IMG/VR virus record: IMGVR_UViG_3300036045_000059
Location: 1-25,391 of that record
Length of the DNA stretch: 25,391 bases
Source: a virus
Strand: one strand, 5' to 3'
Shown: one piece after another, positions 15,992 to 18,944 of the stretch
Layout: every line of letters starts with the position of its first letter
How positions within the stretch are numbered: position 1 is the stretch's first letter
Position numbers and translations under genes: made by a program
The notes under the pieces: model-generated
What the model was told of the DNA's origin: nothing
The model's database searches: none
The model's input: only the letters and a program-made list of their open reading frames with translations

Positions 15992-16549
15992 TTAGAACGG
16001 GATCGAACTGTCGGCTTCCGGTGCCTTGTGGAATTCAGGGCCTTCTTGGTTTGCTGGGGCGGCTGGTTTCCGGCGTGATTTTGCGGCTGGTGGCTTCACG
16101 GCGGGTCGGGCCACGCCGAAGAGCATATCCAGTCGCTTGGCGTCTTCCTGGGTGATCCGCTGGTTCGGGGTTCCGCTTCGCCTCGCATCCCAGTTCCATC
16201 GTTCCCGTTCCTTGCCCTGCCACACCTCGTAGGACAGCTTGGCATCGAACTCCATGCCGATGAGGTTGTAATGCCCCTCCACTTCCGACATGAGCCTGGT
16301 GAATGTGCCATGCTCGTAGCCAAAAAGCTGCCTGAGGTCTTCAAAGAAGCCGGCAACGGTCTTCTCGCTGATGCTCTTGTAGATGGTGCGCATATCGTCG
16401 GCACATGCAACCAGCTCGCCTGTTTGCGGGTCGTACTGCCCCAAGGGTTCAAACTGCAACTCGAATTGATCGGTGCCAGTTTTGGCTTTGGTGAAAGCTT
16501 GGCACGTTACACGGCATCGGTAAGTGCCGGGAAGAAACACTTTGTTCAT
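15992..16549 (-). CDS. SSB-like single-stranded-DNA-binding protein with IPF tail
   Basis: The 185-aa protein begins MNKVFLPGTYRCRVTCQAFTK, a beta-strand opening seen in phage single-strand-binding and recombination-associated proteins. It ends in a disordered Pro/Ala/Lys-rich linker (about 145-170) and the acidic tip EADSSIPF, the same kind of tail that bacterial SSB uses to recruit partner enzymes. The middle (YKSISEKTVAGFFEDLRQLFG) is helical. A GGAG site precedes the ATG. It is the last gene of the recombination block containing the Sak4-like ATPase and the Fe-S nuclease, so coating of ssDNA and presentation to the annealing protein is the likely job. The fold assignment is by pattern and context, not by a recognised family. 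Confidence 0.65.
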   Translation of the reverse strand: MNKVFLPGTYRCRVTCQAFTKAKTGTDQFELQFEPLGQYDPQTGELVACADDMRTIYKSISEKTVAGFFEDLRQLFGYEHGTFTRLMSEVEGHYNLIGMEFDAKLSYEVWQGKERERWNWDARRSGTPNQRITQEDAKRLDMLFGVARPAVKPPAAKSRRKPAAPANQEGPEFHKAPEADSSIPF

Positions 16550-16591: not shown

Positions 16592-16924
16592 TTACGCTGC
16601 GATGTTGTCTTTGGTCCAGAAGTCCTCAGGGAAGGGTTCTCCGATCTTCTTGCATAGGTCGTGCAAGCAGCGAGCGAGCTTGTTGACTTTGCTGTTGAGC
16701 TGCTTGTTTGGGGAGATGGTTGCGTTTGGGCGATTTATGCCTATGCTTTTCATTGCTTGGGCGAGAGAGCGTTCGCATACTCCAAAGTCGCACAATGTTG
16801 AGGCGACCCTTGCTAGCTCGATGAGAGTTCGCTCTGTGGTCTCAAACTCCTTGCGATGAGTTTCGATCATCTTGCAGAGCTTGAAGTATCGTTCATGGCT
16901 GAGCCTGTTCTTCATCCTGGTCAT
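16592..16924 (-). CDS. Hypothetical protein, 110 aa
   Basis: The ATG at 16924 (MTRMKNRLSHERYFKL) has an AAGGA site 8 bases upstream and overlaps the end of the Sak4-like gene by 32 bases. The product is mostly helical and basic with five cysteines (LCKMIE, STLCDFGVCE, LARCLHDLCKK), not in a clear zinc-binding spacing. The stretch ERTLIELARVASTLCDFGVCERS may be a helix-turn-helix, but I would not name it. It stands between the Sak4-like and SSB-like genes, so a link to phage recombination or replication is possible. Confidence 0.65.
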   Translation of the reverse strand: MTRMKNRLSHERYFKLCKMIETHRKEFETTERTLIELARVASTLCDFGVCERSLAQAMKSIGINRPNATISPNKQLNSKVNKLARCLHDLCKKIGEPFPEDFWTKDNIAA

Positions 16925-18059
16925 TCTGTTTTCCTTGGAATGCAGCTTCGAGGTCTGCCCACGCCTGTGCAGGCGACTCGTTGCTGACGTAAATGATGTC
17001 TGAAAGGTTGTGCCGGTTTTTTGCTTCATGGGACGCAGATTGGGTGGTGTGAATGATTCGTTCGCGACCTCCTTTGGCTTTGGTTTTCTTCTTGGGATCG
17101 TTCTCCAGGGTCACGATGTTGTATTGCCCGAAGAGGATGGCATCGACACGCCCTTTGGTGACAGCCCATGTTTTCTTGTGCATTTCGGGGCCAAAGCATG
17201 TGTATTCTGGTCCCGCCGGGTTTGGTACCGCCATGATGCCTTGATGTGCCAGGCTTAGTACGGTCATGCCTTGGTCTCGAAGCCGGTTGAGGAGTTCTAG
17301 GAATCTCTCCCATTCCGGCACTGAGATGTCGTAGCCACGCTGGAAGGCGGTAAACCCTTTTTCTCCCCAGTTTCCGTCAAACTGGGTTCTGCAAATGTAT
17401 TCAAAGCAGAGTCGTTCCAAGCCGTTGATGGTGTCCAGGACCAATGTTTGGCGATCATGGGTGTTGGTGAGCAAAAGCTGCACTGCCCATAGCACCTCTT
17501 CCCAGGATCGAGCGTCAGGTTGCAGGCTTTCGTCTCGTGGAAACTGAAGGTACGTCGCTTCTTGGATTACTTCGTTTTCCATGAGAGTGAGCAGTCCTGT
17601 TTCCCCTTTGCTCAAGAGGTAGACCGGGTTGGGTGCGTAAGCGGCGATCGAAGTTTTTCCCCATCCAGGAACCGCGTACAGAAGGATGTGGTTAGGCCGC
17701 TTGGTGGGTTTGCCCTTGCTGAGTATGGCATGGAGACTCTGCGGGCGTGCTGAAGTGCTGCCACCAAGCGGCGAGCGCGGCGTGGATGGCGCTGCCGAAG
17801 TCGAGCGGGTCGGCAGGCTGGGGCGTGACGAGGCCCTGGTGGTAACGGAAGTCGTACTTTTTGGGGCATTGCGCGTATGTGCTGATCGCGCTGTGTGTGA
17901 GGAGGTTGGCGGCTGGGATTCCAAGTTCGACGTGGTGTTCGGTGTGCTGGAACTTTTCGGCGTTTCCGGATCCGGCGCAGAGGTCGAGGTATTCGCATTC
18001 TCGGTGATAGGCGAAGCAGGCTTTGTCGTTGCGGCGGAAGTGTTGTCGTTTTGTTGCAT
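16893..18059 (-). CDS. Sak4-like RecA-fold ATPase (AAA_24), start unresolved
   Basis: The RecA-like core spans about residues 115-365: Walker A YAVPGWGKTS (Lys135), PVYLLSKGETGLLTLM, Walker B QTLVLDTINGLERL (Asp209), then FLELLNRLRDQGMTVLSLAHQ and DAILFGQYNIV. This matches Sak4, the minimal phage RecA relative used for single-strand annealing with phage SSB. The start is odd. The only ATG in frame is at 18059, with AGGAG 7 bases upstream, which gives an about 105-residue Ser/Thr/Pro-rich leader overlapping the nuclease gene by 368 bases in another frame. Between there and Walker A the only standard alternative is a TTG at 17921. The leader looks like shadow sequence, so a rare start codon (such as the ATA near 17725) or a +1 frameshift from the nuclease gene is possible. 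The core is certain; the N-terminus is not. Confidence 0.8.
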   Translation of the reverse strand: MQQNDNTSAATTKPASPITENANTSTSAPDPETPKSSSTPNTTSNLESQPPTSSHTARSAHTRNAPKSTTSVTTRASSRPSLPTRSTSAAPSTPRSPLGGSTSARPQSLHAILSKGKPTKRPNHILLYAVPGWGKTSIAAYAPNPVYLLSKGETGLLTLMENEVIQEATYLQFPRDESLQPDARSWEEVLWAVQLLLTNTHDRQTLVLDTINGLERLCFEYICRTQFDGNWGEKGFTAFQRGYDISVPEWERFLELLNRLRDQGMTVLSLAHQGIMAVPNPAGPEYTCFGPEMHKKTWAVTKGRVDAILFGQYNIVTLENDPKKKTKAKGGRERIIHTTQSASHEAKNRHNLSDIIYVSNESPAQAWADLEAAFQGKQNDQDEEQAQP

Positions 18060-18738
18060 CTGCGATCTCCTGGGCTTGTTGCCAAAGTTCTGTTGCGTAG
18101 GTGAAAATCTCTTCTTTGCTTCGGTGAATCAGCCTTCGCTGGAAATACCATTCGGGCCTCTCGCGGCAATCGAGCATTAAACGAATGCCGTACATTTCTG
18201 GTGTTTCCCGCTTCTCCTCGTCCATGCAAATGCGCTGGTAGCTTTCCGCGCTGATCGGGTGGCCTAAGTATTCGCTGTTCGTGCCCACACTGAGGACGGT
18301 GCCAGCGGTGAGCTTTTTGGGCTCAATGCTTGGCTTTCGGATGACATCGTAGAGGCACGTGTCAAGCTGCTGGCGGCCTTGCCATGCAGCTAGCATGTAG
18401 CCGCTGATCTGGGTGTCAATGCGTAGCCGCTTCCAGTAGGAAGAGTTTGGCTCAATGCTTTCAGAGCATGTTTTGTGCTCAACCAACACGGTTCCCGATG
18501 GCCCAACTGCGATGGCGTCGAACTTTCCTGCATGATTGAAACGCCTGCTTTTCCGCCCGGTGTTGGGGTTGAAAACGGGCAGCTCAAAGACTTCCTCGAC
18601 TGTTTGTGTGGTCCACGGATGGTTGGTGGCCCATCGTTCGTGATAGCCTTGGATCAAGGCGCGGATGGTGTGATACCTTACTTGGTCGCGTTGTGGCGGT
18701 ATGGCGGCAATGGCCGCTTCGAGCGCAGGATGCTTCAT
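17692..18738 (-). CDS. Fe-S PD-(D/E)XK nuclease (Cas4/RecB family), circularly permuted
   Basis: The 348-aa protein carries all elements of the Cas4/AddB-like nuclease family but in a rotated order. It opens with the helical segment LIQGYHERW (29-36), then the beta core FELPVFNPNTGRKSRRF, GKFDAIAV (Asp74), VLVEHKT (Glu87, Lys89) and RIDTQISGYMLAAW (Gln110, Tyr114), then LYDVIRKPSIEP and three Fe-S cysteines, Cys241, Cys248 and Cys254 (ACFAYHRECEYLDLCAG). Only after these come SAISTYAQCPKKYDFRYHQ (Cys291) and DFGSAIHAALAAWW (His319), which in the usual proteins form the N-terminus. The four Fe-S cysteines are therefore all in the last third. The ATG overlaps the previous stop (ATGA). With Sak4 and SSB it forms a recombination module, probably as the end-resecting exonuclease. 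Confidence 0.88.
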   Translation of the reverse strand: MKHPALEAAIAAIPPQRDQVRYHTIRALIQGYHERWATNHPWTTQTVEEVFELPVFNPNTGRKSRRFNHAGKFDAIAVGPSGTVLVEHKTCSESIEPNSSYWKRLRIDTQISGYMLAAWQGRQQLDTCLYDVIRKPSIEPKKLTAGTVLSVGTNSEYLGHPISAESYQRICMDEEKRETPEMYGIRLMLDCRERPEWYFQRRLIHRSKEEIFTYATELWQQAQEIADATKRQHFRRNDKACFAYHRECEYLDLCAGSGNAEKFQHTEHHVELGIPAANLLTHSAISTYAQCPKKYDFRYHQGLVTPQPADPLDFGSAIHAALAAWWQHFSTPAESPCHTQQGQTHQAA

Positions 18739-18944
18739 GTGTTCTCCGTGCCTGGTATTGCTTCAAAAGCGTCGCTGATGGCTTTGTGGAGCGCGTAAAT
18801 GTGGCTGGTTGTTCCGCAGATGGTAAGTCTTCCATCCAGAGTGATTGCCCAGTTGTGATGGTTGCGGTGGATGGTGATCGTGTCGCGCGCCTGCATCCTG
18901 GCGAAGACGGGGCTAAGTTCGGTGTAATGGTGAGTTAGAATCAC
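18735..18944 (-). CDS. Hypothetical protein, 69 aa, GTG start
   Basis: The GTG start overlaps the stop of the upstream gene (GTGA) and its stop overlaps the nuclease start (ATGA), so it is locked into the operon. The protein (ILTHHYTELSPVFARMQ, then ITIHRNHHNWAITLDGRLTI) is His-rich with alternating strands and a C-terminal helix (HIYALHKAISDAFEA). No motif is recognised. Its small size and coupling to the nuclease gene hint at an accessory role, without further support. Confidence 0.7.
   Translation of the reverse strand: MILTHHYTELSPVFARMQARDTITIHRNHHNWAITLDGRLTICGTTSHIYALHKAISDAFEAIPGTENT

Follow-up and report, generated by a model that had tools for sequence, protein, structure and literature searches.

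A predicted Cas4/AddB-type nuclease with a circularly permuted chain, encoded next to a Sak4-like gene in phages

Introduction

Cas4, ACE1, AddB and AdnA are nucleases of the PF12705 class, in which an N-terminal element comes first in the chain, the nuclease core follows and three cysteines come last. They share with the protein described here four cysteines, the FGxxxH, D...(D/E)xK and QxxxY motifs and the predicted core fold, but they lack the permutation, and in AddB and AdnA the nuclease is in addition fused to a helicase. In phages, unpermuted exonucleases of the PHROG family phrog_1218 (for example L087, L076 and L067) are approximately 34% identical to our protein over 257 aligned profile columns. 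They carry the same motifs and have the same Sak4 neighbour, and differ in that the N-terminal element stands at the start of the chain. Sak4 is an annealing protein that acts on single-stranded DNA together with its cognate SSB (PMC5928155).

A protein with the order reported here has already been deposited. The 'exonuclease' XJP11549.1 of Tunturi_1 and Tunturi_2 is approximately 38% identical to our protein and has the same permuted order, but it is annotated merely as an exonuclease, and this word is absent from the main text of the Tunturiibacter virus paper (PMC11924767). Circularly permuted phage DNA methyltransferases provide a precedent for permutation in a DNA enzyme family (PMC7824862), although their fold and chemistry differ. 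Our literature search, the coverage of which is incomplete, found no published report of a permuted Cas4/AddB-type Fe-S nuclease, and a Cas4 phylogenomics study makes no use of the word for permutation. A review of the PD-(D/E)XK superfamily (NAR 2012) reportedly discusses permutations elsewhere in the superfamily. Nucleases of the Fe-S PD-(D/E)XK type are known, as is circular permutation, and a permuted Fe-S member is apparently new, its priority not being certain.

Results

The nuclease gene and its surroundings

The window analyzed here is the whole of a single metagenomic virus record (25,391 bases), the larger genes of which include those for the major capsid protein, terminase, integrase, a DNA methyltransferase and Sak4. 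A 520-aa AAA ATPase encoded at 21403-22965 matches the PHROG family phrog_8638, of unknown function (1.1e-75). The open reading frame that had been proposed to encode a nuclease was confirmed at 17692-18738 on the minus strand, with 348 amino acids and an ATG start, and this start codon overlaps the stop codon of the upstream gene (18735-18944, minus strand) as ATGA.

17692..18738, minus strand: permuted PD-(D/E)XK nuclease gene, 348 aa (ORF list, Pfam and PHROG matches, rotation scan, AlphaFold2 model)
18744..18747, minus strand: GGAG, a ribosome-binding-like site 5 nt before the nuclease ATG (read from the sequence)

The frame stays open for just 8 codons ahead of residue 1, and an N-terminal element has therefore not been overlooked there. 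Moreover, a search of the six frames of the window with a profile of the element found no second CPxKY/FGxxxH element. An upstream segment of this kind joined to the nuclease frame, which according to the original prediction would have spoken against permutation, is thus not present.

Two swapped segments become continuous upon rotation

Searching the protein against nuclease profiles, as had been suggested, resulted in Pfam and PHROG matches in two pieces. PF12705 matches residues 280-334 at the start of its profile (3.1e-16 for the whole protein), and phrog_1218 matches residues 24-261 with profile positions 99-336 (2.9e-20) and residues ~278-328 with positions 8-59 (8.9e-11), the order of the latter two matches being swapped. 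All 348 rotations of the protein were scored against a profile of 24 unpermuted relatives. The best single stretch in the native order scored 253 bits, whereas cutting the chain after residue 273 gave one continuous match of 303 bits, which spans positions 8-322 of the unpermuted profile and is a clear single optimum. In the reverse test, the score of the unpermuted protein L087 against the permuted profile increased from 237 to 291 bits when L087 was cut at residue 59. Almost every member of either set, permuted or unpermuted, gained in score upon rotation, in both directions. The protein thus has the two segments of a circular permutant, homologous to one domain, swapped in order and continuous after rotation. 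Because the element is C-terminal and rotation restores the order, we file the nuclease as a permuted variant and not as a standard member of the PF12705 class.

The optima at residue 273 and at residue 59 of L087 place the break within a few residues of the predicted point between AAWW and ALEAAIAAI. The unpermuted relatives have a short loop at this point (L087 residues 58-61). At the joint, the old C-terminal HxEL motif is retained and is followed by a short variable linker and then LTxS, which is what a fusion between the end of one copy and the start of another would be expected to leave. The parts of the protein are the following:

17953..18738, minus strand: nuclease core (residues 1-262), found behind the N-terminal element in relatives (HMM order, rotation scan)
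18517..18519, minus strand: catalytic Asp74 of the GKxD motif (invariant in permuted and unpermuted representatives)
18472..18480, minus strand: E87-H88-K89, the (D/E)xK motif (conservation in representatives)
18397..18411, minus strand: Q110...Y114, the QxxxY motif of RecB/AddB/Cas4 nucleases (conservation)
17977..18018, minus strand: C241, C248 and C254, the three C-terminal-type cysteines (conservation)
17905..17976, minus strand: joint, with the old C-terminal tail HHVEL (VHEEL in relatives) and the linker to the moved element (alignment, rotation scan)
17749..17904, minus strand: N-terminal element in its new position (residues 279-330), containing C291 and the FGSAIH motif (H319) (profile matches, rotation scan, model)

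Conservation of these motifs was counted in 45 permuted representatives. The residues of the (D/E)xK and QxxxY motifs (D74, E/D87, K89, Q110 and Y114) are present in all 45, and so are the one N-type and three C-type cysteines (C291 and C241/C248/C254) and the GxxxH of the N-terminal helix (G315 and H319). The four cysteines and H319 are at the positions that the original prediction had given them. This invariance across permuted representatives argues strongly for a working enzyme, and from the four invariant cysteines an Fe-S cluster is predicted.

The predicted fold is complete

An AlphaFold2 model of the window protein, built on an alignment of 36 permuted sequences, had a pLDDT of 92.4 and a pTM of 0.88, with disorder only in the last 15 residues; the model of the unpermuted L087 protein had values of 93.3 and 0.87. 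Compared as element lists, the main helices and strands of the two models correspond, in rotated order. The moved element was modelled with confidence as helices 282-290, 292-300 and 310-327, and the predicted fold is complete. Failure of residues 276-348 to complete the nuclease fold, the other outcome held to contradict permutation, was therefore not observed in the model.

Comparisons with known structures using a sequential aligner differed between the two models. The unpermuted model aligned with AdnA, ACE1 and AddB across the whole nuclease domain with Z scores of 13-15 (Z 15 over AdnA 788-1039 and ACE1 7-274). In contrast, the permuted model reached Z scores of 7.3-8.5 with AdnA and ACE1 (8.5 for AdnA, only over chain residues 840-1039, and 7.6 for ACE1, over residues 81-271), and the alignments missed the first 50-75 residues of the domain, which correspond to the part supplied by the C-terminus in the permuted protein. 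A partial alignment of the permuted model next to a full one of the unpermuted model is what a permutation predicts. A Z score near 8 is weak by itself, and it is the contrast between the two predicted models that appears informative. Against solved structures, the unpermuted profile matched Cas4 (4ic1) weakly, with an E value of 0.0095, and the permuted profile gave chance matches only.

The permuted order recurs in many phages

Among the distinct sequences identified by scans of viral contigs and phage genomes, 57 were permuted, 93 unpermuted and none mixed. The permuted order, which the original prediction had suggested looking for in other phages, was found in many of them, down to 28% identity, including Tunturi_1 and Tunturi_2, isolated phages of Tunturiibacter (Acidobacteriota). 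One 94 kb viral contig (IMGVR_UViG_3300020229_000001) carries two different permuted nuclease genes, L159 and L168, approximately 60 kb apart. No relatives were found in bacterial and archaeal genome contigs by single-sequence and alignment scans, nor on plasmids. Altogether, with both halves homologous to the same unpermuted nucleases, the claim of circular permutation in the original prediction largely holds: the gene encodes a Cas4/AddB/AdnA-type PD-(D/E)XK nuclease in permuted order.

Linkage to Sak4 and an SSB-like protein

Permuted and unpermuted nuclease genes share one position, directly before a Sak4-like gene. In almost all loci, whether permuted or not, the Sak4-like gene follows the nuclease at once or after a short interval; it is annotated as such in the isolate Tunturi_1, where the neighbours of the nuclease are recombination genes. 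In the window, the following 2 genes accompany the nuclease:

16893..18059, minus strand: Sak4-like RecA-fold ATPase/annealing protein, with a predicted ATG inside the nuclease gene (phrog_124, 9.7e-34)
15992..16549, minus strand: SSB-like protein with an acidic DSSIPF tail, likely a partner in the module (24% identical, 2e-10, to the protein annotated as SSB in Tunturi_1)

The SSB-like protein is not matched by any Pfam, PHROG or NCBIfam model. With the phrog_124 match, the synteny and the SSB-like neighbour, the locus has the arrangement of a Sak4 module, in which an exonuclease gene adjoins Sak4 and SSB. The association that marks CRISPR-associated Cas4 was not found, as a scan of ten window proteins, those that are larger or lie adjacent, gave no cas1/cas2-type match. 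Of the possible roles, the best supported is resection of DNA ends, with the nuclease acting as the exonuclease of a Sak4/SSB recombination module.

Close to its ATPase domain, the window's Sak4 gene lacks a start codon that could be used. The likely ATG, at 18059, is located 366 nt within the nuclease gene and in a different frame, so that the two genes would overlap at 17692-18059 on the minus strand. In L011 an ATG is found at the corresponding position and the extension resembles that of the window, the two having the start, the ribosome-binding site and a portion of the N-terminal extension in common. Inside the overlap, the nuclease shows greater conservation at third codon positions (74/113 vs 117/225, Fisher p 0.012). 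In a comparison with synonymous shuffles the open frame itself was not significant, being reached by 12-15% of them. This pattern in the sequence is a hint of dual coding, not a proof.

Origin of the permuted order

In trees rooted with distant unpermuted members, the permuted genes are nested within the unpermuted ones, which indicates that the permuted state is derived. The permuted genes form one clade in a tree of 61 rows (support 53/16) and two clades, P-A (which holds the window) and P-B, in larger trees. A second permutation at the same loop, with P-A and P-B each having acquired the order once, is a possibility we entertain tentatively; it concerns the origin only and is compatible with the explanation preferred here. 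The two clades do not join in the rooted tree of 106 rows, nor in the Sak4 tree. However, a single origin is worse by only 0.04 log-likelihood units (p-AU 0.48), so that the AU test rejects neither one nor two origins, and the shared breakpoint and joint favour one event. It is doubtful, going further, that the fold is permutation-prone and was permuted twice at this one loop while the moved segment became dual-coding in the lineage of the window, overprinted by the N-terminal extension of Sak4. As for the route, tandem duplication followed by loss of the outer halves, proposed originally, is plausible and remains a proposal: no gene with two copies of the element was found among ~255 classified, and no remnant of the element within 1.5 kb of permuted genes.

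Discussion

We consider it probable (approximately 0.88) that the product of the gene is a circularly permuted exonuclease belonging to the Cas4/AddB/AdnA (PF12705) class and acting with the Sak4-like protein and SSB in recombination. The permuted order and its conservation, the invariant motifs, the complete predicted fold and the linkage to Sak4 are results of the present analysis, while nuclease activity, its polarity and the bound cluster are inferred from the family, and the role in recombination is likewise inferred. With the window being a single metagenomic virus record, an assembly error or frameshift could in principle have produced the order by fusing the end of one nuclease copy with the beginning of a second. 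This reading is refuted by the presence of the same order in 57 distinct sequences and in the isolates Tunturi_1 and Tunturi_2, and by the lack of an upstream or second copy within the window, and we reject it as next to impossible.

The C-terminal CPxKY/FGxxxH segment could instead be degenerate or accessory, the enzyme working without it or pairing in trans as a domain-swapped dimer. An element with a cysteine of its own might serve a neighbouring subunit, and the linker of approximately 20 residues would permit this. However, the chain has no other copy of the element, the Cys, Gly and His of the element are invariant, and the single-chain model places the element with high predicted confidence, which makes such an arrangement very unlikely. 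A role in counter-defence or interference with CRISPR spacers is known for some phage Cas4-like proteins, those of Campylobacter phages being described as altering host spacer acquisition (PMC5704561, citing earlier work). For the present nuclease this role seems improbable because the nuclease is constantly found with genes for Sak4 and an SSB-like protein, and no CRISPR genes were seen nearby.

In the permuted chain, the N-terminal element, with its cysteine and FGxxxH helix, now stands behind the three C-terminal cysteines. The new chain ends lie at a loop that follows the FGxxxH helix, and the former termini are joined beside the presumed Fe-S cluster, the folded enzyme being expected to be the same as the unpermuted form. 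D74, E87 and K89 would bind metal and cut, H319 would complete the active site, and C241/C248/C254/C291 would hold the cluster. The nuclease may then resect DNA ends, and Sak4 would anneal the exposed strands.

Natural circular permutants within catalytic metal-cluster enzymes are uncommon, and with this family it can be tested whether the fold owes a tolerance of re-wiring to an Fe-S cluster that clamps the ends of the chain together. Two independent permutations, had they occurred, would show that the loop and the cluster-tethered termini predispose the fold to permutation. With the permuted order, a domain search may recover only half of the protein, and such genes may therefore be under-annotated. 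For the phages that carry it, the permuted nuclease family would supply the exonuclease partner for Sak4.
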